Of a DNA stretch of 64,000 bases, positions 49,332 to 60,092 are shown in pieces; the stretch's first letter is position 1; every line of letters begins with the position of its first letter. Position numbers and translations under genes: made by a program. This stretch comes from Rhizobium sp. ASV20 (GTDB lineage Bacteria > Pseudomonadota > Alphaproteobacteria > Rhizobiales > Rhizobiaceae), in assembly GCF_016429015.1 (NCBI RefSeq), contig NZ_JAELTU010000015.1, positions 1 through 64,000 on the forward strand, in the 5' to 3' direction. The notes under the pieces were generated by a model. It worked only from the letters and a program-made list of their open reading frames with translations. It made no database searches and was not told the DNA's origin.

Positions 49332-50757
49332 GGATGCTCTCCGGGAAAAGATTGTCGAGCTGATGATATTTCTCGATGGCGCGCTCGAATTCGTCGCCAA
49401 TCCGCTTGATTTGCTCCGACAATTCCGTCTGGGCGCTCTGGATGCGCGAGCCGAGGACCTTATCGTCCCATTCTTCTTCGGTGCGGATGACGGGCGTCAG
49501 GCGCTCCATCCTATAGGCTGACTTGAAGTAAGACGGTTCCTGCTCGGTGCGTGCCGTCCTGTTGGCATCGCGGTAGGAGGTCAGCAACACATTGGCTGCG
49601 CGCTCGAGATGGTTCTGGTGTTCGACGAAAAGGCCGGCAGTCCTCGCGCGATGGGCGATGATGGCAGCCGTCTCCTGCCGACGCAGCGATAGATCGCGAA
49701 TAATTTCCTCGATCTTGCCGTTGTGGTCGTCACGGATCTCGCGAAGATCTTCGATCAGATCCAGCTTCCGGTCGATGTAATTGTCTCTTGCCGTGTCAAG
49801 GCGCTTCTGGACGCCGGCAAAGCCTGGATAGGGATCTGTTAGATAGCAGCCGTCGATGAAGGCGACGAGCGAGAACATCAGGCCGATGGCAAAAAGCATC
49901 CACGAGTTCAGTTCCGTCAGCCCGAGCGGCGCGGCCTTCAGGCGTTGGATCACCTCGGCACCGGCACCGCTCAAGATTGTTGCCGAGACCTCGCGGTAGT
50001 GTGCGAGCGCGATGTTGATACCCAGCGCGACGGCCACATAGGCAACGAGCCCGAGAAGGCCGAGCAACTTCAGCACATAAGACCGATGCACCAGGAAGCG
50101 AACGCAAAAGAAGGAGAATATCAGCGCCATGCCGATATTCAGGAAGGCGAAGGCAGCAGCCTCCGTTACCCCGCCGACAAGGCCTTGCTCGCTTCCCTTG
50201 GCAAGGAAGCTGCCGTTCATCACCATTTCGATGAGGACAAGGAAGACGATGAGCGAGACCTTGAAGCCCCATGCCGCCTTGCTCGAAACCTTGGCGGCGC
50301 GCTGCAGCTTGTGAGTGGCCTTGAAGCCGACCATCTCGTCCTCGGCGGTTTTCAGCTTGCGGCGCAGACCATGAAGCTCATCGACGCCGCTTGCCACTTC
50401 CGCCTTGAAATCCGAGACGCTGGAGGCGTTAGCCTGGCGGATCAAGCCGAATTGGCCCTCGAAATCAAGGTTGCGCAGACGGCTGTCGAACGTCTGAAAC
50501 TGGTCCTCGAGGATCTGGTAGGAACTCTTCTTTTCCGCCTCAACCCAGGCGACGAGGCGCTGTTCCGTTTCATCGAAGGATTGGGCGTCCGGCGCTGGCC
50601 GGTTCTGCCGCCCCGCTGCAGCACCCTTCTCTTTCAGATCGAGAGTAGAGCCAAGCTTCTCGATATCGACGACGGGAAAGACGTCCGTCGACGCACGGAA
50701 ATCATGGCTTGTCTCCCGAACGTTGTCCCAGAGACGATTAAGGGCTTCGAAACGCAA
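49309..50757 (-). CDS. Four-helix membrane protein with flanking coiled coils, first gene of the unit
   Basis: A 482-residue protein I cannot assign to a family. The N-terminal 160 residues are charged and coiled-coil-prone (RLVAWVEAEKKSSYQILEDQ). Four membrane helices follow (about 165-187, 196-222, 229-253, 283-304), then a long charged C-terminal part (310-482) with heptads such as LRRQETAAIIAHRARTAGL. Translation starts at TTG 50757 after GGGGAAGA. It opens a compact minus-strand operon with VWA-like, MotA-like and MotB-like genes, so it is probably the cytoplasmic/membrane scaffold of the same machine. Confidence 0.7.
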   Translation of the reverse strand: MRFEALNRLWDNVRETSHDFRASTDVFPVVDIEKLGSTLDLKEKGAAAGRQNRPAPDAQSFDETEQRLVAWVEAEKKSSYQILEDQFQTFDSRLRNLDFEGQFGLIRQANASSVSDFKAEVASGVDELHGLRRKLKTAEDEMVGFKATHKLQRAAKVSSKAAWGFKVSLIVFLVLIEMVMNGSFLAKGSEQGLVGGVTEAAAFAFLNIGMALIFSFFCVRFLVHRSYVLKLLGLLGLVAYVAVALGINIALAHYREVSATILSGAGAEVIQRLKAAPLGLTELNSWMLFAIGLMFSLVAFIDGCYLTDPYPGFAGVQKRLDTARDNYIDRKLDLIEDLREIRDDHNGKIEEIIRDLSLRRQETAAIIAHRARTAGLFVEHQNHLERAANVLLTSYRDANRTARTEQEPSYFKSAYRMERLTPVIRTEEEWDDKVLGSRIQSAQTELSEQIKRIGDEFERAIEKYHQLDNLFPESILGSTQAA

Positions 50758-51048
50758 TGATCTTCCCCGGCGAATTCATCAACTTAGAAAGGACAAGACG
50801 ACAAACCGATACCGTACCGGTTGTCCCCGGTCCAGCGCGATATGACCGAGGTTAGGATGCGATTGTGGTAAAGAATAGCCCGAGCGCATTGCGATTGGAA
50901 AACATCTGCCTGCATGAAGAGTGGTCATGACGCCCGTCGCAGCAAAATGCCGTCATAAAGTGTCTTGCGATCTTTCGGACCTGCTCCGCCGTTGGGTATT
51001 GGATGTTGCTCTGTCACATGACCGCTGCGCGCTCTTGCGACACATGCA
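50758..51048. other. Gap between the SARP-type regulator and the four-gene unit
   Basis: About 290 bp with no credible gene; the probable promoter region of the four-gene unit on the minus strand. No clear sigma-70 or EcfG match was found by eye. Confidence 0.45.
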
Positions 51049-52959
51049 CTATTGGGCGCACTCCTTCCAGAAACCCGCCCTATGCAGCCCTTCAAGATAG
51101 ATGTCGCGCTGCCACTGTTCCTTGAATGGCAAGACGGAAACCCAGCGATCCACATCGAAATCGGGAATGGTCTTGTGAATGCGCCGAACGAAGAAGGCTG
51201 CTCTATTCTCTTCCCCGAGCATCGCCCAGCTCGCCGCTGAAACCCGGTCCGCCAGGCGAGGATCGGCCATTCGGCCGATATAGTCCAGCGCAGCGTCAAA
51301 ACGGCCGAGCGTATAGCTCGCCACGGAAGCGGTCCAAAGATAGGTGTCGGGACTGAGCGGATTGAGCGCAATGGCACATTCGATCTTCTCCAGCGCCAGG
51401 TCCGGCCGTGACGAATGAAGCAACACCTCGGCGTGGTCGGCGATGATGCCGGCATGGCCGGGATTGAGGGCTTCGGCAAGCTTCAAGGCCTCGATGCTTT
51501 CGTCGTTTGCTCGCTGAAAGCTCTTCGTCAGGCCAAGCTCGCGGTAGCCGTCGGCGATATCATGCCGCGCCGCGATTGCCTGCTTGGCATAGTTTTCGGC
51601 TTCATCCAGCAACGCCTTGTCGCCACCCGATGTCAGCACCCACTCCTTGGAAAAGGTTCGAGCCACGGAACTCAGGCCGGGGGCAAAATCACCGCCTCCC
51701 CGTAATGCAGCGATCAGCTCAGATCGCGCCCTCTGCAGGTTCGGGATCGAGAGGCGTTCGAGATAGCGCTTGCCGGCAAGATAGCGCTGATAGGCTATCG
51801 GGCTTTTCCTGAAATAGGATCGCATCATCTCCCGGCGTTCGATCTGTCCGGCGACAGACAGGACGATGTGGCGCGTGACCGCCTCTCTCTCCCGCTTTGG
51901 CGAGGACGGCCCAAGATTGACGCGCTCGGCCCAAAGCACCTCATCCGTGCCGGCATCGACCAGTTGCGAAAACAGATGAGGCTCTGCGGCCCCAGCACTC
52001 GGTCTGATATCCAGAATGTAGGAACGATCTCCTTGATCGAAAGTTGCAGCTGTATGCCGTCCACCCCCGCTGACCCGCACAGAGGTGCGACGATCTCCGA
52101 TATCCAGGCTTTCCAACGCGTACAAACCGATGGTGATACCCTGCACCAAAGCCAGCGCATCGTAGCCTTGGGCTGGCTCGACGCGGGAGGGCAGAAGCAA
52201 AAGCGGTATCTCCAGTTTCCGCGATGCGGACGCGACCTCCTTCTCCGACGAGACGGTGCTCTCCCCATCCGATACCACCGCTATATCCTGCCGATCCGAC
52301 CACAACGCCAGAAGTGCGTTGCGCTGCTCGAAAATCTGCCGGAAGTGCTCGACCTCACCTGCTGTATCGAATATCCGCAGCAGAATTCGATGCATATCCC
52401 GATCGTCCGGATCAATGCCGAGAAGCAGGGTGGCAACATCCTTCACCAAAGCGATCTCGTCTTTGGTACTTGCCTGCTCGGCCGCAACTTTCAACACTTC
52501 CTTTACCCTGAGGCCATGCCGGTGCCTCTGGGCTTCCCGCCATTGGAAGAAAATCGCGCTCTGGCAACTGACTCCCTTCAGAAACTCCGCCTGCTGCGCC
52601 TCGACCAACGATTTCAGTGTCGCAATTGCCGATCCGGCATCGCCACTCCTGAAGACCGTGCAATCGGCAAGCGAAGGCGCGGATTGAAGTTCGACGGTGG
52701 TTTCGCTGAAATGGAGAAACGATTTACCCAGCTCGGCCTGGCGCCCCCTTATCCGGGAAACGAGTTTGCGTAGATTGACTTGCGCACTGCCATTATCATC
52801 GCGCCCCCACAGAAAACGGCCAATCGCGCTGCGGGGCGCACGCATATTCGGATCCATCATCAGATAGACCAGAATCAACAAGCCCTTCTCAGGAAAGGCG
52901 ACCTCTCGCCCGTCACCATCCAGAAGCTTCAAACCACCAAATACATGCAGTGAAAACAT
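51049..52959 (-). CDS. SARP-type (BTAD) regulator with TPR region
   Basis: A 636-residue cytoplasmic regulator. The N-terminal OmpR-like winged helix (MFSLHVFGGLKLLDGDGREV, then KGLLILVYLMMDP, SAQVNLRKLVSRIR) and bacterial transcriptional activation domain (about 100-230) define the SARP class. The middle (LEIPLLLLPSRVEPAQGYDALALVQGI) recalls a degenerate TolB-like/CadC sensor domain, and the C-terminal third holds tetratricopeptide-like repeats (HDIADGYRELGLTKSFQRANDE, ALNPLSPDTYLWTASV). SARPs are best known from actinobacteria. The ATG at 52959 starts the DNA-binding domain. It is the nearest regulator to the four-gene membrane unit. Confidence 0.82.
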   Translation of the reverse strand: MFSLHVFGGLKLLDGDGREVAFPEKGLLILVYLMMDPNMRAPRSAIGRFLWGRDDNGSAQVNLRKLVSRIRGRQAELGKSFLHFSETTVELQSAPSLADCTVFRSGDAGSAIATLKSLVEAQQAEFLKGVSCQSAIFFQWREAQRHRHGLRVKEVLKVAAEQASTKDEIALVKDVATLLLGIDPDDRDMHRILLRIFDTAGEVEHFRQIFEQRNALLALWSDRQDIAVVSDGESTVSSEKEVASASRKLEIPLLLLPSRVEPAQGYDALALVQGITIGLYALESLDIGDRRTSVRVSGGGRHTAATFDQGDRSYILDIRPSAGAAEPHLFSQLVDAGTDEVLWAERVNLGPSSPKREREAVTRHIVLSVAGQIERREMMRSYFRKSPIAYQRYLAGKRYLERLSIPNLQRARSELIAALRGGGDFAPGLSSVARTFSKEWVLTSGGDKALLDEAENYAKQAIAARHDIADGYRELGLTKSFQRANDESIEALKLAEALNPGHAGIIADHAEVLLHSSRPDLALEKIECAIALNPLSPDTYLWTASVASYTLGRFDAALDYIGRMADPRLADRVSAASWAMLGEENRAAFFVRRIHKTIPDFDVDRWVSVLPFKEQWQRDIYLEGLHRAGFWKECAQ

Positions 52960-53196
52960 GATCTTGTTCGCGACCCGCATCGACCGATGTCGGCGGAGCA
53001 AACCGAGGCCGACTTTCGCTTACCGCATTGATTTCATTCCAGTACGAACAAACATGGCTCAATCTTCATACGATTGCAATGTGCGAGAAGGCGCGGCGAT
53101 TTCAAGTCCGATTGCGGCCGGCTCGAAAAACTGCTCGCCAAATCGTCGGCATGGCATATTTTGCAGCGCACGCGATCTGACCCGGAGCATCATGCC

Positions 53197-54210
53197 ATGA
53201 CGTCTTTACCCTTCAAGAACATCTGCATTTACGGCGCCGGCGCTCTCGGCGGCGCGATTGCGGCAAAGCTGGCTGCATCCGTTGAACAGGCGCAGATTTC
53301 CGTCGTCGCGCGCGGGGCACATCTTGCGGCCATTCGCTCCGGCGGCATCCAACTTTGGGAGCCAGGGGTGGAACGCCCGCTCATTGCGCGGATGACTGCA
53401 ACGGACGATGCGGGCGAATTGCCGCCACAGGATCTTGTCATTACCGGGCTCAAAGGCCATCAGCTCGCGGCCGCCGTGCCCGGAATAGCGAAGCTCTTGC
53501 ACACAGGCACCCGCGTTGTGATGATCCTCAACGGTGTACCATGGTGGTATTTCCACAGGGACCAAAAGAGCGGCCATGCGGAATATCAAATGGAGGAGCT
53601 GGATCCGAACGGCGATCTCTGGCGATTGATCGGCCCCGAGCGAGTGATCGGCTGCGTAGCCTATCAGGGTGCTGAAGTCTTGGGGCCTGGCGAAATCAGG
53701 CTCAGCAACAATGGCCACTTCATCCTGGGTGAGCCATCCGGCGAGACGACGACGGACATCGAAGCCATCGCGGCACTGCTGCGGAAGGCCGGAGTCAAAA
53801 TCTCGGTGTCCGCGCGCATTCGCGACGATATCTGGAGCAAGCTGATGGGCAACGCGGCATTCAATCCGATCAGCGCACTGACGCGAGCCTTGATGTCGGA
53901 GATCATGAATGATCCGGCGCTTGCATCCATGGTCGGTCAGGTCATGAGCGAAGTCAAAGCGGTTGCCGAATCCCTCGGGTCGCAAGTGGCAATGTCCGTC
54001 GAGGAACGTCTGGACCGTTCGCGCCAGATCGGGCCGGTGCGTACCTCGATGCTACAGGATCTGCTGGCCGGCAAGGCGCTGGAAATCACGCCTCTTGTTG
54101 GCGTTGTCGTTTCGCTTGGCAAGCTGACAGGCGTGGCGACACCAGTTTCCGCAACGATACTTGCATTGGTGACGCAGCTCGACCGCACGAACCAGCAGGC
54201 GGCCGGGTAG
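53197..54210 (+). CDS. 2-Dehydropantoate 2-reductase family (ketopantoate reductase-like)
   Basis: A 337-residue NADP-dependent reductase: N-terminal Rossmann loop YGAGALGGAIAA and C-terminal ApbA domain with the catalytic Lys in WSKLMGNAAFNPISALTRA. The role in pantothenate synthesis (PanE) is possible, but many rhizobial paralogues of this length act on other 2-oxo acids. The ATG at 53197 begins the Rossmann strand; the upstream in-frame part is the divergent promoter shared with the SARP gene. Confidence 0.83.
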   Translation: MTSLPFKNICIYGAGALGGAIAAKLAASVEQAQISVVARGAHLAAIRSGGIQLWEPGVERPLIARMTATDDAGELPPQDLVITGLKGHQLAAAVPGIAKLLHTGTRVVMILNGVPWWYFHRDQKSGHAEYQMEELDPNGDLWRLIGPERVIGCVAYQGAEVLGPGEIRLSNNGHFILGEPSGETTTDIEAIAALLRKAGVKISVSARIRDDIWSKLMGNAAFNPISALTRALMSEIMNDPALASMVGQVMSEVKAVAESLGSQVAMSVEERLDRSRQIGPVRTSMLQDLLAGKALEITPLVGVVVSLGKLTGVATPVSATILALVTQLDRTNQQAAG

Positions 54211-54368
54211 CGCCCGCCTGCAGCTTGTCGGCACGGCAAGCGCCGCATCGGCCACCTCGTCCCACCGCTCGATTCTTTATATCGCCCTTATTTTCTCGTC
54301 TTCCGCCGGGAATGGATTTCCTATGCCCGCAAGACCTACGCTTGCATGGACATATGGAGATAAGTGCC

Positions 54369-54596
54369 ATGCTCGAGACGCACACAACCAATCTGGCCGA
54401 ATCCATTCGGATCCTGGTTCATAACAGTGACGAGAAACATCATCGCAGAACTGCATCGGCGCCGGCGGTAATGAACCAGTCAGGGCGCCAGCGTCTCGGT
54501 CGCAAGGTCCGCGAAAAGCGCACGTTTTGGGCGATGCTCGTCTTCGGGCTGCTGCTCGGCGGTCTCGAGCTTTTCATCGTCCTCCACTATCTCTGA
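54369..54596 (+). CDS. Small single-span membrane protein
   Basis: A 75-residue protein with a polar, basic N-terminal region (residues 1-50, RRTASAPAVMNQSGRQRLGR) and one C-terminal helix (FWAMLVFGLLLGGLELFIVL). I do not recognise a family. The ATG at 54369 was chosen because GGAGATAAGTGCC precedes it; an ATG five codons upstream is possible. It is 13 bp before the DapA-like gene and may be co-transcribed with it. Confidence 0.6.
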   Translation: MLETHTTNLAESIRILVHNSDEKHHRRTASAPAVMNQSGRQRLGRKVREKRTFWAMLVFGLLLGGLELFIVLHYL

Positions 54597-54609
54597 GCAG
54601 TAAAAGAAC

Positions 54610-55551
54610 ATGGGCAGGCAAGGCTTGCAGAAGCGTATCGGCGGCACGATCACCGCCCTCGTTACGCCGTTTCGAGACGGTGCACTCGACACCGTCGATT
54701 TGATGGCACATGTGGAATGGCAGCTGCTGAGCGGTGTCGATGGCTTGCTCACCTGCTCTCTTACGGGCGAAGGACCGACGCTGACCGATGCCGAGCGAAT
54801 GCGGATCACCGAGATCTGCGTCGAGCTTTCGGAAGGCAAGACGCCGGTCGTCGTTGCGACGGGTACGAACGACACGACGACAACGATCGAAGAGACGCTG
54901 CAGGCGCAGCGGCTCGGTGCCGACGCCGCCTTCGTGACCGTGCCCTACTATTCCAAGCCGACGCAGAAGGGTGTTCTCCACCACTTCGAGCAGATTGCGG
55001 CACAAACCGGCATGCCCCTCATCATCCACAACCAGCCATCGCACACGGCAATCGACCTGGCTCCCGCGACGATCGCACAACTTGCCGAAATCCCCGGTAT
55101 TATCGGGATCGCAGATGGAAGCGGCGATATCTCCCGCATCGATCTCTGGCGCCCCTTGCTACCACAATGGTTCGGTCTCTACACTTCAAGCGACGAAAGC
55201 GCGCTCGCTTTCACCGCAACTGGCGGCCAAGGCTGCTTTTCCGCCGCCGCCAACGTCGCTCCGCGACTCTTCCATGCGATGCAACATTCTGCCGCCTGTG
55301 GTCATCTCTCAGTCGCCCATTCAATCGACGGGCGCTTGCGACCACTGTTCAAAGCTCTCACTCGCGAGAGCGAGCCCGCCGCGGTGAAACATGCCCTCGC
55401 CGCCTTGAGAGATATGGAATCGGAGCTACGCTTGCCTCTGGTTCACGTTTCGCCCGAAACCGCGGCAGAGATCCAGATCGCCATTACGCCCTTTCGGATC
55501 GATGGCGGCAGTCGGCTGGCTTCTCGTCAAGCCTTTCGACTTGGTCTGTAA
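54610..55551 (+). CDS. DapA-family protein lacking the Schiff-base lysine
   Basis: A 313-residue (beta/alpha)8-barrel of the dihydrodipicolinate synthase/N-acetylneuraminate lyase family: GTITALVTPFRDGALD, the pyruvate-carboxylate loop SLTGEGPTLT, VPYYSKPTQKGVLHHFE and IIHNQPSHTAIDL. The Schiff-base Lys (in the IGIKEATGD motif of DapA) is replaced by Ala168 in IGIADGSGD, and the proton-relay Tyr (IYNVP) by His140 in IHNQP. It therefore cannot do the usual aldol chemistry and is not the DapA of lysine synthesis. It may bind a ligand or catalyse another reaction. Confidence 0.8.
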   Translation: MGRQGLQKRIGGTITALVTPFRDGALDTVDLMAHVEWQLLSGVDGLLTCSLTGEGPTLTDAERMRITEICVELSEGKTPVVVATGTNDTTTTIEETLQAQRLGADAAFVTVPYYSKPTQKGVLHHFEQIAAQTGMPLIIHNQPSHTAIDLAPATIAQLAEIPGIIGIADGSGDISRIDLWRPLLPQWFGLYTSSDESALAFTATGGQGCFSAAANVAPRLFHAMQHSAACGHLSVAHSIDGRLRPLFKALTRESEPAAVKHALAALRDMESELRLPLVHVSPETAAEIQIAITPFRIDGGSRLASRQAFRLGL

Positions 55552-55694
55552 AAGCCGAGCTATCCCTATGAGATTTTTATACTTTTCTCAGTTCAGCCAA
55601 ATGGAAATCCTAGCAAACCATCCATAGATTCAACGGCGTAGCACTGGAAGCGGTCTACTTCGACCCACGGTGCTGGTGACACTGGAAAGGAACT

Positions 55695-55892
55695 ATGATG
55701 TCACGTTATACGCATGCTGGCCTAGCCGCCGATCCCCTCCAACGTCCTCGTGCCGTCGCCCTTGTCAGGAGCGAACGGCACTTCTCTTCAGAAGCGCTTT
55801 TGCACGGCCTTGGCGCCGTTGCGCCTCGGCTCGGCTTCGTCCTCCTCATCGCCGGCACTTTACAGCTGGCAATGCATCTGGCCGGTCACTGA
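55695..55892 (+). CDS. Small membrane protein
   Basis: A 65-residue protein: MMSRYTHAGLAADPLQRPRA, a short basic middle, and one C-terminal helix (LGFVLLIAGTLQLAMHLAG). A clear Shine-Dalgarno (GGAAAGGAAC) precedes the start. The family is unknown to me. It is followed by another small gene 33 bp downstream. Confidence 0.62.
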   Translation: MMSRYTHAGLAADPLQRPRAVALVRSERHFSSEALLHGLGAVAPRLGFVLLIAGTLQLAMHLAGH

Positions 55893-55925
55893 ACACAACT
55901 GAAGAGATCCAAGAGGAATAAAAGC

Positions 55926-56195
55926 ATGGCAAATGCATTGAATATTCAGCGCCGCGCGACCCATAATCGCCTCGTCCAGGTTCCGGCTCGCTTCATCATC
56001 GGCCGCGACCGTCGCGGCAACTGGATCGTGCAGGACCGCGAGGGGCTGGTCGGCGGCCTGTTCCGCAACGAAGCTGCCGCCCTGCACTTCGCTGCCGAGG
56101 AATGTAATCATAACCCGGCCGACATATGTCATGCGCCCGAGGGCGCTATCCTCGACCTGAATGGGTTCGCATCCACCTCATCCAATCTGCATTGA
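55926..56195 (+). CDS. Small hypothetical protein
   Basis: An 89-residue soluble protein with an AAGAGGAATAAAAGC ribosome site. The middle part RRGNWIVQDREGLVGGLFRNEAAALHFAAEE resembles the strand-helix unit of DUF2188-type small proteins (weak). The end is Cys/His-containing (CNHNPADICHAPEG). No function can be given. Confidence 0.65.
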   Translation: MANALNIQRRATHNRLVQVPARFIIGRDRRGNWIVQDREGLVGGLFRNEAAALHFAAEECNHNPADICHAPEGAILDLNGFASTSSNLH

Positions 56196-56298
56196 ACCGC
56201 ACCCGGGTGCAGGCTTCGACAGCCGCATCCGGCCGAACGCTTCCTTAACCCGCATTCGGGTAGGTTTCGGCCAGGATGTCCCAGAAAATAGAAACACG

Positions 56299-56628
56299 AT
56301 GTCGAAGCCTGCTTTTCGCTATAGCCACTACGATCTCAAGGAACAGCGCGCCGGAACGGTGATTGAAATCACGCTCTCGGCCATCGCCAATGTCAGGCTG
56401 ATGAACGGCTCGAATTTCGAGCGCTTCACCGAGACGCTAAAACACCAATTCCTCGGTGGCGTTGCCAAGAAATCACCGATCCGGCTGTCCATTCCGGAAG
56501 CGGGCCATTGGCATCTGGTGGTCGACATGGAGGGGCACAGAAGCCTGGCGGAATCGAGCGTGAAGATGGTCGACAAGACCATTGCGCCGCGCATGCAGAA
56601 AACACCGCAGGACACCGCCCAGAGCTGA
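56299..56628 (+). CDS. DUF1883 domain protein
   Basis: A 109-residue protein of the DUF1883 family: FRYSHYDLKEQRAGTVIEIT, VRLMNGSNFERF, then SPIRLSIPEAGHWHLVVDMEG. The fold is a small beta barrel of unknown function, sometimes joined to TIR or phage-related domains. The ATG at 56299 starts the conserved part; the upstream in-frame extension is not protein-like. It converges with rarA (7-bp gap). Confidence 0.83.
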   Translation: MSKPAFRYSHYDLKEQRAGTVIEITLSAIANVRLMNGSNFERFTETLKHQFLGGVAKKSPIRLSIPEAGHWHLVVDMEGHRSLAESSVKMVDKTIAPRMQKTPQDTAQS

Positions 56629-56635
56629 TTTGAGA

Positions 56636-57952
56636 TCAGCGCTCGCCACGCTCCTTGCGCAGCTTGGCCCACCAGTCCAGCCGCTTGCGGATATCCCGCT
56701 CGAAGCCGCGCTCCGGCGGGTCGTAGAAGGTCTGTCGGCCCATCTTTTCCGGAAAATAATTCTGGCCTGAAAAAGCGTCCGGCTCGTCGTGATCGTATCG
56801 ATAGCCGTCGCCATACCCCTCCGTGCGCATCAGCTTCGTCGGCGCATTGAGGATGTGCCTGGGCGGCAGGAGCGAACCATTCTGCTTGGCGGCCTGCGTC
56901 GCTGCCTTGAACGCGGTGTAGACCGCATTCGATTTCGGGGCCGTCGCGAGATAGACGCAGGCTTGCGCCAGCGCCAGCTCCCCCTCGGGCGAGCCCAGAT
57001 AGTCATAGGCGTCCTTGGCGGCATTGCAGATCACCAACGCCTGCGGATCGGCAAGCCCGATATCCTCCACCGCCATGCGCACCAGCCTGCGTCCGAGATA
57101 GAGCGGATCCTCCCCGGCATCGAACATGCGGGCGAGATAATAGAGGGCCGCGTCGGGATCCGAGCCACGCACGGATTTATGCAGCGCCGATATCAGATTG
57201 TAGTGTCCATCCTGCGCCTTGTCATAGACCGGAGCGCGGCGCTGCACGATCTTGACCAGCATGTCGGGATCGAAACGCTCGTCCTTGCGCGCGGCACGCC
57301 AAACCTCTTCAGCAAGTGTCAGTACCGATCGGCCATCGCCATCGGCCATGCGGACAAGGCTGGCACGGGCATCGTCCGTCAGCGGCAGCGGCTTTGCCTC
57401 TACAGCCTCTGCACGGCGCAACAACTCCTCCAGACTGTCCTCGTCATGTGAACGGAACGTCAGGACGCGGGCACGCGAGAGAAGAGCGGCGTTAAGTTCG
57501 AAAGACGGATTTTCGGTCGTCGCTCCCACGAGAATGACGGTGCCGTCTTCCATGACGGGCAGGAAACTATCCTGCTGGGCGCGATTGAAGCGATGGATCT
57601 CGTCGACGAACAGCAGCGTCTGGCGGCCGTCCATACGGCGCAAACGCGCCGTCTCGAACACCTTCTTCAGATCGGCAACGCCGGAAAAGATCGCCGAAAT
57701 CTGTTCGAAGGCAAGACCGGCCTCCCCCGACAAAAGCCTTGCAACCGTCGTCTTGCCGGTGCCGGGCGGTCCCCAGAAAATCATCGATCCCAGCGAACCC
57801 GCCTCGATCATCCGGCGTAGCACGCCGTCCTCGCCGGTCAGATGTTCCTGACCGGTGACTTCAGCCAGGGTTTGCGGCCGCAGACGATCGGCAAGAGGCC
57901 GCTTGTTGGCGACCTCCTCCGGTATCCGCGGCGCAAACAGGTCGTTGCTCAT
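56636..57952 (-). CDS. rarA: Replication-associated recombination protein A (AAA+ ATPase)
   Basis: A 438-residue clamp-loader-like AAA+ ATPase (RarA/MgsA/WRNIP1 family) acting at stalled replication forks. It begins RIPEEVANKRPLADRLRPQT, with Walker A WGPPGTGKTT, Walker B LLFVDEIHRFN and sensor VGATTENPSFELNAALLSRARV. The C-terminal tetramerisation part contains SDPDAALYYLARMFDAGEDP and SPEGELALAQACVYLATAPKSN. Its ATG overlaps the stop of the DegP-type gene (ATGA), so the two are translationally coupled. Confidence 0.95.
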   Translation of the reverse strand: MSNDLFAPRIPEEVANKRPLADRLRPQTLAEVTGQEHLTGEDGVLRRMIEAGSLGSMIFWGPPGTGKTTVARLLSGEAGLAFEQISAIFSGVADLKKVFETARLRRMDGRQTLLFVDEIHRFNRAQQDSFLPVMEDGTVILVGATTENPSFELNAALLSRARVLTFRSHDEDSLEELLRRAEAVEAKPLPLTDDARASLVRMADGDGRSVLTLAEEVWRAARKDERFDPDMLVKIVQRRAPVYDKAQDGHYNLISALHKSVRGSDPDAALYYLARMFDAGEDPLYLGRRLVRMAVEDIGLADPQALVICNAAKDAYDYLGSPEGELALAQACVYLATAPKSNAVYTAFKAATQAAKQNGSLLPPRHILNAPTKLMRTEGYGDGYRYDHDEPDAFSGQNYFPEKMGRQTFYDPPERGFERDIRKRLDWWAKLRKERGER

Positions 57953-59352
57953 CGGAAGAACTGCCGGATACGCTGGCCGTCGCGCTCGATCTCGACGCGC
58001 CAGAAGCTCGGGTTCGACGTGACGGTCTTCTGGAGGATTTCCGTCGTGTTGATCGCCACGCCATTGATGGAGATGACGATATCGCGGGCAGCAAATCCCA
58101 GCCGGTCGGCCGGCGAATTCTGCTTCAGGCTCTCGATGACGACGCCCGTGGAATCCGGCGGCATATGCAGATCATCGGCAACGCGCGGCGAGAGATTGGC
58201 AACGGTCGCGCCGGAGAAGGGATTGTTGCCCTCGATCACCCGCTCATCGCGCGGCGTCGATTCGGGCGCGGCGGCAAGCGTCATCGTCGCCTGATGCTCC
58301 TTGCCATTGTCCAGCACCGTCAATGCCACCGTGGCGCCGAGGCCCGCCGTGGTCAGGCGGTAGCCGAGCGCATCGGGATGCTCGATCGGGATGTTATTCA
58401 GCGCGGTGATCACTTCGCCCGGCTTGAGGCCAGCCTTGGCCGCCGGCCCGCCATCGACCACCTTGGTCACCAGCGCACCGCGCACCTTGTCGAGGCCAAG
58501 CGCTTCGGCAACGTCCGATGTTACGGGTTCGAACGAAGCGCCGATATAGGGGCGCTCGAAAGCCTTGTCACCGCGATCGGCAGCCGCGAGGAAGACCTTG
58601 ACCAGATTGGCCGGGATGGCGAAACCGATACCGTTGGAGCCGCCGCCCTGGGAGAAAATCGCCGTGTTCAGCCCGATCAACTGGCCGGTCATGTTGACGA
58701 GCGCGCCGCCCGAATTGCCGGGGTTGATCGAGGCATCCGTCTGGATGAAGAAGCCGACTTCGTTCTTCACCTGATTACGGGCGAGCGCCGAGACGATGCC
58801 GCTCGTGACAGTCTGACCGACGCCGAATGGATTACCGATCGCAAGCACGAGATCGCCGACCTCGATACCATCGGAATTGCCGAGCGGCAGAACCGGAAAG
58901 GTCTCGTTCTTCGACTGGATCTTTAGGACGGCGAGATCGACGCGATCATCCTTCAGAATGACCTTGCAGGGAAACTCGCGGCCGTCCGAAAGCGCGATCT
59001 TGATATCGTCGGCGCCATCGACGACGTGGTTGTTGGTGATGACGGTGCCGTTTGCCTCGACGATAACGCCCGAACCCAGAGATGATTGCTTCTCGGTGCG
59101 ATTCGGCATGCGCTGGCCGAAGAACTGCTCGAAGAAGGGATCGCCGGCAAAGGGGGACTGACGCTGCACGACGCGTTCGGCATAAACGTTCACCACGGCG
59201 CCGGACGTCTGCTTGACCAGCGGCGCGAAGGAAAGCTGCATCTGCGTCTGGCTTTCCGGCAGCGTCTTCGCCGTCTGAGCCTCAGCGGAAAGCGGCATCG
59301 CCATGATGAGGGCAATCATCGAAACGGCAGTGCGCTTCAGGAGGACTTGCAT
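57949..59352 (-). CDS. DegP/HtrA-type periplasmic serine protease
   Basis: A 467-residue periplasmic protease/chaperone. The signal peptide (MQVLLKRTAVSMIALIMAMP, cleaved after AEA) is followed by a trypsin-like domain with triad His109 (TNNHVV), Asp139 (RVDLAVLK) and Ser214 (NPGNSGGAL), then two PDZ domains (GALVTKVVDGGPAAKAGLKPGE; STGVVIESLKQNSPADRLGF). It degrades misfolded envelope proteins. The ATG at 59352 follows AGAAGGAAG. It lies upstream of rarA in one unit, the usual rhizobial arrangement. Confidence 0.93.
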   Translation of the reverse strand: MQVLLKRTAVSMIALIMAMPLSAEAQTAKTLPESQTQMQLSFAPLVKQTSGAVVNVYAERVVQRQSPFAGDPFFEQFFGQRMPNRTEKQSSLGSGVIVEANGTVITNNHVVDGADDIKIALSDGREFPCKVILKDDRVDLAVLKIQSKNETFPVLPLGNSDGIEVGDLVLAIGNPFGVGQTVTSGIVSALARNQVKNEVGFFIQTDASINPGNSGGALVNMTGQLIGLNTAIFSQGGGSNGIGFAIPANLVKVFLAAADRGDKAFERPYIGASFEPVTSDVAEALGLDKVRGALVTKVVDGGPAAKAGLKPGEVITALNNIPIEHPDALGYRLTTAGLGATVALTVLDNGKEHQATMTLAAAPESTPRDERVIEGNNPFSGATVANLSPRVADDLHMPPDSTGVVIESLKQNSPADRLGFAARDIVISINGVAINTTEILQKTVTSNPSFWRVEIERDGQRIRQFFR

Positions 59353-59528
59353 GGAAACTTCCTTCTTTAATGCTCTTGAAACAACGTTGTAGCGCCCGAC
59401 GCTAGAAAGAAAAGAGGGCGGAAGCATGAAGCATAAATGGATGTTTGCGGCGATAAAAAACAGGCTCGCTGAACAAAAACGTGCTGTCATGCATTTCGGG
59501 ATTGGAAGTCATCAAATGGAGCAGAAAT

Positions 59529-59876
59529 ATGCGATTGAACAGCCTTGCCGCCGCCGTCTTCGTTACCGCTTTCGGCATGGCCGGAACCTCCCATGCAGCC
59601 AGCTTCGATTGCGAAGCGCAGAACCTGAAGCCAGACGAAAGGACGATATGCGACGTCAGGGCGCTCAACGACGCTGACGTGAAGATGGTAACGACCTTCG
59701 ACCTGCTCTCCGGCCTTCTCGCCATGGGCTCGCGCGGCACGCTGCAGGATCAGCAGACAGAGTGGCTAAAGAAGCGGCAAGCCTGCGGCGCCGATGCTGC
59801 CTGCCTCAAATCCTCCTACGAGGAGCGCCTGAAGCAGCTCAACGAGGCATACAAGCAGATCAATCGACCGCTTTAG
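59529..59876 (+). CDS. LprI/DUF1311-like secreted protein
   Basis: A 115-residue secreted protein. The signal peptide (MRLNSLAAAVFVTAFGMAGT, cleavage near SHAAS) precedes a four-Cys domain: FDCEAQNLKPDERTICDVRAL, then QTEWLKKRQACGADAACLKSSYEERL. This Cys pattern and the W-x3-R-x-C core match the lysozyme-inhibitor LprI N-terminal (DUF1311) type. Binding of lysozyme is not proven for most members. The ATG at 59529 has GGAGCAGAAAT before it. Confidence 0.8.
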   Translation: MRLNSLAAAVFVTAFGMAGTSHAASFDCEAQNLKPDERTICDVRALNDADVKMVTTFDLLSGLLAMGSRGTLQDQQTEWLKKRQACGADAACLKSSYEERLKQLNEAYKQINRPL

Positions 59877-59918
59877 GGTCGCATCCTTCGATGATGTTGG
59901 CCTCTCCGCCGGACAAAG

Positions 59919-59944
59919 CTCTCTCCCCGCCTATGGGGAGAGAG
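59919..59944 (+). terminator. Hairpin after the LprI-like gene
   Basis: CTCTCTCCCC (59919-59928) pairs with GGGGAGAGAG (59935-59944) over a 6-nt loop, without a T tract. A looser hairpin at 60063-60087 may serve ilvD on the other strand. Such pyrimidine-rich palindromes are common between rhizobial genes. Confidence 0.6.
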
Positions 59945-60092
59945 TTAGAGTGAGAGGCCGCCCGCGCACGGACGGGTGAACTCCACCGTTGCGATAAAGC
60001 TCGAAAAGCCCCTCATCCATGCTCTCCCGGCCGAGTTCCACTCGACCGTTCGAGTCCGCTTTCTCCTCGCCTTGCGGGGCGAAGGAGCTTGG

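Follow-up and report, generated by a model that had tools for sequence, protein, structure and literature searches.

A 64,000-nucleotide window of the Rhizobium sp. ASV20 genome (the whole stretch of DNA analysed here) raises the question of what a DHDPS-family protein is for once the Lys that forms the Schiff base in DapA has gone. The family assignment itself is straightforward: the PF00701 (DHDPS) profile match scores 214.2 bits against a cut-off of 22.1 and covers residues 11–291 of the 313-aa protein. In alignments to MosA (2vc6), other solved DHDPS and Rhizobiales homologues, the positions of E. coli K161 and Y133 are occupied by Ala168 and His140, respectively, which bears out an earlier note on this DNA that had read the Schiff-base Lys and the relay Tyr as replaced by exactly these residues; the Lys expected of a functional DapA is absent. 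The pocket also has T44 changed to Leu51, R138 to His145, G186 to Ser193 and I203 to Phe210. Six of the eight active residues of DHDPS given in the accessible excerpt of PMC3369909 (T44, Y106, Y107, Y133, R138, K161, G186 and I203) are altered and Y106 and Y107 alone remain, and the proton relay T44–Y133–Y107 is broken at Leu51 and His140, with only Y107 (Tyr114) retained. The carboxylate loop, described earlier as largely kept, is unchanged at T45–G46–E47 and altered at G43 (Ser50) and T44 (Leu51). The earlier claim that aldolase chemistry should be impossible is slightly too strong, as a point mutation of K161 in E. coli DHDPS is described in the same excerpt of PMC3369909 as leaving activity 'largely impaired', although five further active residues are changed here. 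Judged from its sequence, the protein is a member of the known DHDPS fold family that fails the residues of a working DapA.

Despite the missing residues, the NCBIfam dapA equivalog TIGR00674 is passed (231.6 vs 206.15 bits); a whole-protein score that accepts Lys-less proteins in this way is a source of misannotation and may mislead pathway reconstructions. Eight DHDPS-family genes are present in the ASV20 genome, seven of them with the Lys, and a canonical dapA (L001) is present. The AlphaFold model of the protein was built from eight sequences and is poor (mean pLDDT 61), and the pocket and interface were therefore assessed from alignment alone; with this model as the query (pLDDT 61, rmsd ~8.5), the best 50 Foldseek rows were all DHDPS, the top one being 2vc6 at E 3.8e-23.

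We searched 148 Rhizobium genomes at E<=1e-60 and obtained a graded series of relatives, from which the orthologous group was taken as 90 rows, one per genome, among the matches listed. Canonical dapA- and MosA-like rows were excluded, some by motif and others by identity and range alone (for instance G004, G008, G027, G053, G068, G069 and G146). Residues were checked in 82 of the 90 members, the window's own included, comprising 42 sequences of clade A, 39 of clade B and L057; the eight members outside this check are G065, G093, G105, G106, G114, G116, G119 and G127. The Lys is missing in 81 of the 82, the sole exception being L057, in which Lys, Tyr, Thr and Arg are all present, and a 91st member, G135 (39.9% identity), is also without it. 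Both artefacts that the earlier note had raised can be set aside: no other Lys is brought to the K161 position in the alignments to solved DHDPS and Rhizobiales homologues, as an alignment shift would do, and the close homologues, which in the case of a sequencing error would all carry the Lys, lack it in the proportion just given.

The replacements themselves are less uniform. At position 168, clade A (n = 42) has A in 37 members, C in 3 and V in 2, clade B (n = 39) has V 16, L 9, R 5, I 4, A 3, C 1 and T 1, and clade C, from other genera, has V/E/Q/M/A. At position 140, H (40) and D (2) occur in clade A, D (18), E (18), Y (1), S (1) and V (1) in clade B, and C/G/H in clade C. The family alignment that the earlier note had proposed thus finds the Lys absent across the orthologous group, but Ala and His are no fixed new active site. 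A single conserved new active site in all Lys-less members is not supported, since positions 51, 140 and 168 vary both between and within clades, and the variety of residues at position 168 favours dispensable catalysis over one new chemistry.

We reconstructed a tree of 85 rows from which the active-site columns had been removed. In this tree the Lys-bearing L057 is sister to clades A and B (99/95 and 100/94), and the Lys-less clade C (100/96) is sister to the Lys-bearing L106–L112 (95/81). Parsimony places two changes of Lys state on the tree; a single clade of all 58 Lys-less rows was rejected (AU p=0.0152, for a clade named after the tree had been seen), and a wider tree of 70 rows that includes other families has four changes, two of which rest on long branches. 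These topologies imply that the Lys would have been lost independently at least twice. Lys-bearing and canonical sequences share 75 invariant positions; among these, losses affected 15/36 pocket versus 1/39 other positions in clade A (41 rows, L017 left out; Fisher p 3e-5), 10/36 versus 0/39 in clade B (p 3e-4) and 10/36 versus 1/39 in clade C (p 2e-3); these p-values are indicative, because the pocket set was drawn from strand ends after the changed positions had been seen. Lys-bearing members have an identity of 0.88 in the pocket and 0.56 elsewhere. In clade A the pocket is likewise better conserved than the remainder (0.80 vs 0.71), which is compatible with a bound ligand or with new chemistry.

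The earlier note had proposed a sensor, a binding protein or an enzyme with different chemistry, a set that is still right as far as it goes; the pocket varies, and the genomic context, which the note did not mention, carries most information on the gene in the form of small partner genes and kdp-like operators (Table 1).

Table 1 Features around the Lys-less DHDPS-family gene, with positions in the window
Feature	Position	Strand	Description
Upstream element	54276..54323	+	5′ of tm54–dapA-like; degenerate KdpE-like repeat 54276-54292
TAT-N19-AATGGANNTCCTA block of upstream element	54289-54323	+	
tm54	54369..54596	+	75 aa, one C-terminal hydrophobic segment; ends 13 bp 5′ of dapA-like start
Lys-less DHDPS-family ORF (dapA-like gene)	54610..55551	+	313 aa, ATG start; from Pfam and alignments to solved DHDPS
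Downstream element	55565..55612	+	5′ of s55–s56; KdpE-like repeat 55565-55581
s55	55698..55892	+	64 aa, conserved 'ADPLQR' near N terminus, hydrophobic C-terminal half
s56	55926..56195	+	89-aa orphan family, strict partner of dapA-like gene

The hydrophobic segment of tm54 reaches a Kyte-Doolittle maximum of 2.27 (residues 54–72), and that of s55 is weaker, with a maximum of 1.76. The s56 family has the core RFxVGRDxxGxWVVxDRxGLVGGLFxxExAAxHFAxxE, and no Pfam or NCBIfam family was matched by the window's s56. Likeness to UPF0339/DUF1508 (YegP) is a weak similarity of model fold, unsupported by profiles: the s56 model (mean pLDDT 68.7) has its best VIA match in 2k8e (YegP; Z 5.0, rmsd 3.1, 58 aligned) and scores Z 3.3 against 2k49 (UPF0339 by title), hhalign against DUF1508, represented shallowly by 7 closely related sequences, gave a probability of 0.3%, and when 32 s56 members were scanned against Pfam at E<=1, DUF1508 was absent from the eight families that any of them hit. 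The best match of that Pfam scan, DUF7250 (2/32 members, best E 0.0024), was rejected as too weak, and a Foldseek search with s56 returned nothing at E<=0.001.

The association of s56 with the dapA-like gene is close. Among the matches listed, s56 lies directly downstream on the same strand in all 90 Rhizobium group genomes, 90 of the 95 s56 rows in the genus fall within 900 bp 3′ of a dapA-like gene on the same strand, and both genes are missing in 54 of the 148 genomes. Four Rhizobium genomes have s56 without a dapA-like match (among the matches listed): in G034 (L199) the dapA-like gene is broken by frameshifts and the s56 match adjoins it, in G135 the dapA-like frame lies below the search threshold, G089 has an s56 remnant, and G021 has a distant s56 elsewhere. 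Beyond the genus, the family search covered 30 loci, of which five are Rhizobium; s56 adjoins a DHDPS-family gene in 29, the exception being L176, and does so in 8 of 16 loci in other families of the order; the Lys is also missing in the other-family loci L233, L239, L241, L242 and L244. A small gene of the s56 family stands beside the Lys-bearing paralogue in L057, L210 and L133 (the L107 place with wider flanks), and since Lys-bearing members also adjoin s56, the common role is not simply that of being dead. Some further observations concern the same neighbourhoods. The motif [AI][DE]PLQR is common to s55 and some s56 N termini (e.g. L098 and L076, where no s55 was seen), and is perhaps a docking motif. 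In some other-family loci, next to kdpA, the dapA-like gene has two s56 matches nearby (L245, L247, and L246 with one on each side). In 9 of the 15 other-genera loci compared (L132–L135, L138–L140, L148 and L149), the dapA-like gene is preceded by a reading frame for a conserved protein of 130–150 aa with an LREHxVWEA-like motif.

Median pairwise dN/dS values for the dapA-like gene are 0.180 (clade A, 71 pairs), 0.233 (B1, 149 pairs) and 0.158 (B2, 20 pairs), beside 0.132, 0.216 and 0.089 for s56; tm54 has 0.178 (clade A, 72 pairs), and s55, at 0.378 and 0.390, shows the weakest constraint among the genes measured. The comparison genes gave 0.019–0.037 (rarA) and 0.113 and 0.133 (panE). The dapA-like gene is under purifying selection, weaker than that on housekeeping genes.

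The elements on either side of the gene are kdp-like in sequence. Downstream, the direct repeat CCTATG-AGATT-TTTATA (55565–55581) is followed by a AAATGGAAATCCTA block to 55612, and the first half of the flanking element resembles the ASV20 kdp promoter, TTTATA-AGATT-TTTATA, 5′ of kdpA. The E. coli KdpE site consists of TTTATA and TTTACA, 5 bp apart (PMC3264566, accessible excerpt), an arrangement that the ASV20 kdp promoter fits, and TTTATA-like half-sites with a 5-bp spacer, as in this E. coli consensus, are found at 55565–55581. TAT-N19-AATGGANNTCCTA has exactly two exact copies in the 8.3-Mb genome, those flanking the dapA-like gene, and a single additional place with one mismatch. Exact copies occur in 83 of the 148 Rhizobium genomes, in 94 rows of which 59 lie at the dapA-like gene, 27 in genomes outside the 90-genome group, G034 and G135 included, and the other 8 elsewhere.

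A matrix built exclusively from 19 kdp promoter sites (13 Rhizobium and 6 other loci) ranks 55565–55581 first in the 64-kb window with 21.6 bits, the next site scoring 9.1. The upstream copy at 54276–54292 has rank 21 (2.6 bits) and is weak in many other clade A loci too; in many clade B relatives the upstream site scores 17–30 bits. Across 57 Rhizobium group loci with wide flanks, a flanking site ranks first in 56 (the exception is L102), and both flanking sites hold ranks 1–2 in 34. In other Rhizobiaceae genera (L132–L141, L147–L149 and L210), the best site near the module reaches at least 15 bits in 3 of 14 loci (15.6 in L136, 16.3 in L149 and 25.8 in L147), and several have nothing above 9. 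In Rhizobium, and in some other families as well, the evidence for these putative operators is strong; it is not so everywhere. By number, a scan of the ASV20 genome with a short operator pattern and one mismatch is indecisive (3 places vs 5 for the reversed control), and we therefore relied on the kdp-only matrix and a genus-wide exact scan; the exact matches of the short pattern in this genome are two, here and at kdp, for a pattern drawn after both sites had been seen. In the genus-wide scan, TTTATRNGATTYYTATA occurs exactly in 132 of 148 Rhizobium genomes and its reversed control in 0 of 148. Thirty of its loci were fetched, 28 of which lie upstream of kdpA and 2, by coordinates, are the dapA-like upstream site; 13 rows among the matches listed are the upstream site of the dapA-like gene or tm54.

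In R. leguminosarum, potassium limitation reshapes transport via PtsN and KdpDE, according to the accessible excerpt of PMC3665714. In ASV20 the kdp genes are on another contig than the dapA-like gene, and in other families the two are physically linked: kdpA (PF03814) lies 0.6–2.1 kb from the dapA-like gene in six of seven other-family loci chosen for carrying both s56 and the dapA-like gene (L245–L249 and L251, the exception being L250; L251 has its dapA-like frame in two pieces). On the short stretch of an eighth locus of this kind, L231, kdpA is likewise present. Pfam identified kdpA and kdpC in L248, and KdpD in the kdp stretch of the ASV20 genome, with kdpB appearing as general P-type ATPase domains. 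KdpE-like sites 5′ of the dapA-like gene or s56 score 21.3 bits in L245, 24.2 in L246, 15.3 in L250 and, more weakly, 12.1 in L249. Near kdpA, s56 is also found with no DHDPS-family gene nearby (L176, L232 and L237), and kdp genes occur on the same 12.9-kb stretch in 3 of 14 loci of other Rhizobiaceae genera (L134, L136 and L147). In the ASV20 kdp operon (L253, 5908–6215), two very short membrane-protein-like ORFs precede kdpA, the upstream one ending in YTKACDSL; the 29-aa ORF before kdpA is presumably KdpF-like.

Loci that have lost the gene show what may remain behind. A dapA-like match is absent in 15 of 17 further loci. In 13 of these 15, the upstream element is followed by DUF1883 within ~0.5 kb and then by rarA, with a further gap before rarA in L202, L203 and L207; the element is missing in the other two dapA-less loci, L208 and L209. 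Of the 17 loci, 15 bear the element (L199 and L206 counted), and 9 of these contain a tm54-like ORF when a strict motif is applied. Several Rhizobium genomes (L193–L207) thus retain tm54 behind a KdpE-like element without the dapA-like gene and s56, and tm54 may have its own role in potassium limitation; the module as a whole, lost or broken in many Rhizobium genomes, is not essential. As for RNA, no family reached the gathering threshold within 50000–60000, and the three tRNAs of the window all lie outside that interval. A 650-aa protein without a Pfam family, encoded at 51049–53001 on the minus strand and diverging from a panE-like gene, occurs in 7 of the 80 fetched loci and looks like a winged-helix plus repeat regulator.

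The catalytic residues have been lost while the gene has been kept with its partners behind a putative kdp-type switch, and it probably helps in potassium starvation other than as the usual enzyme. We consider it probable that the dapA-like protein is a pseudoenzyme of the KdpE regulon: when potassium is limiting, it would act as a non-catalytic subunit that serves as a scaffold or senses a ligand and is kept close to the membrane by its small partners tm54, s55 and s56. It would be a DHDPS paralogue that has given up Schiff-base aldolase chemistry while retaining the barrel sequence and, at the tight-dimer interface, the tyrosine loop. We infer that tm54–dapA-like and s55–s56 would form two operons under the control of the KdpFABC pump's response regulator KdpE, which would bind both and turn them on when potassium is scarce; that the barrel, unable to make the Schiff base, would perform no chemistry and bind a ligand or protein instead; that tm54 and s55 would hold it near the membrane, with s56 bound to it; and that the Kdp pump, KdpD or another transporter are candidate targets of its action. 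More tentatively, s56-linked DapA paralogues at large may constitute a potassium-limitation class in which catalysis is dispensable, DHDPS having become a sensor or adaptor in several lineages that tunes the Kdp pump or its signalling together with s56 and KdpE-controlled membrane proteins; we regard this wider proposal as possible rather than probable.

Other readings must be weighed, which overlap with one another in part, so that our estimates of their probability need not sum to one. The conserved pocket of clade A could be that of an enzyme remodelled for a Schiff-base-free reaction needed at low potassium, formed by Ser50, Leu51, His140, His145, Ala168 and Phe210 with Tyr114, Glu54 and Asp195 kept. 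Its replacement residues are indeed near-fixed (Leu51 40/42, His140 40/42, His145 39/42, Ala168 37/42 and Phe210 40/42), the pocket is conserved above the remainder of the protein, and Glu54, Tyr114 and Asn215 are invariant among the counted members of clades A, B and C. The residues at positions 140 and 168 differ in clades B and C, however, while the partner gene and its linkage are unchanged, and no DHDPS-family enzyme is known to work without the Lys; we consider such an enzyme unlikely. The kept Y106/Y107 loop (PYYSKPxQ), with a Tyr that reaches the neighbour's active site, together with Glu54, Asn87 and Thr89, which we take to be positions around the DHDPS dimer cleft, would also suit a prozyme-like subunit that adjusts a catalytic DHDPS (dapA or MosA) at low potassium by joining it in mixed dimers or tetramers. 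A canonical dapA is available in the genome for such a partnership, but a homodimer would equally need these interface residues, and we saw no linkage to canonical dapA, the tight links being to s56 and, in other families, to kdp; we rate this reading as quite unlikely.

Two further accounts fare worse. Constraint on a redundant gene might have been relaxed, its catalytic residues drifting toward loss, and the absence of the gene and s56 from 54 of the 148 Rhizobium genomes (among the matches listed), the frameshifted copy in G034, the s56 remnant in G089 and a dN/dS several-fold above that of rarA (0.02–0.04) all fit such decay. We nevertheless find it very unlikely given a dN/dS of 0.16–0.23, an s56 that is equally or more constrained, retention of the gene in 90 genomes (among the matches listed) down to ~41% identity, conserved operators, and changes that are confined to the pocket and not spread. 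Finally, residual activity of the K161A type might supply diaminopimelate or lysine at low potassium: E. coli K161A has been crystallised (3i7q), activity after K161 mutation is called 'largely impaired' in the excerpt of PMC3369909, and the dapA equivalog cut-off is passed. With T44, Y133, R138, G186 and I203 altered simultaneously and a canonical dapA already in the genome, a weak DHDPS of this kind is hardly credible. Should the wider proposal of a potassium-limitation class be true, a metabolic-enzyme fold would have been repeatedly recruited as a regulator of potassium homeostasis. The main reading would tie orphan small proteins and a dead aldolase to potassium limitation, and the clades with their Lys-bearing sisters offer a natural experiment in enzyme death, and on what a DHDPS without its chemistry is for.

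Our searches of the open-licence literature turned up neither a DHDPS-family pseudoenzyme nor a connection of DHDPS with kdp, and no paper with 'dihydrodipicolinate synthase' together with 'pseudoenzyme'; no DHDPS-family member of the KdpE regulon was found there either, a paper on the drought response in Arthrobacter being the one match for the two subjects together. Prozymes are pseudoenzyme regulators of metabolic enzymes, and the dapA-like protein resembles them as a paralogue whose catalytic residues have gone although it is otherwise conserved and under selection. With DapA and MosA (PF00701, TIGR00674) it shares a full-length barrel alignment at 37–41% identity (2vc6, 6xgs, 4i7u and 3si9, all Rhizobiales), the Y106/Y107 loop and T45–G46–E47; it differs from them in the Schiff-base Lys, Tyr133, Thr44, Arg138, Gly186 and Ile203, and in the linkage of its gene to s56 and KdpE-type operators. 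E. coli DHDPS mutants K161A, R138H, T44V and Y133F have been crystallised singly, according to the structure titles; here all four positions are changed, and the protein matches K161A and R138H exactly. The Lys-bearing s56-linked paralogues in other Rhizobiaceae and Phyllobacterium (e.g. L057, L107 and L210, the last on a plasmid of Phyllobacterium sp. 628) likewise have an s56-family gene beside them, and L057 and L107 fall within the same clade as the dapA-like protein (100/99); they keep Lys161, Tyr133, Thr44 and Arg138 and could therefore be catalytic. The likeness to the KdpE regulon (kdpFABC) lies in a putative operator in which 5 bp separate two TTTATA-type half-sites, and in the dapA-like and s56 genes that adjoin kdpA in other families.
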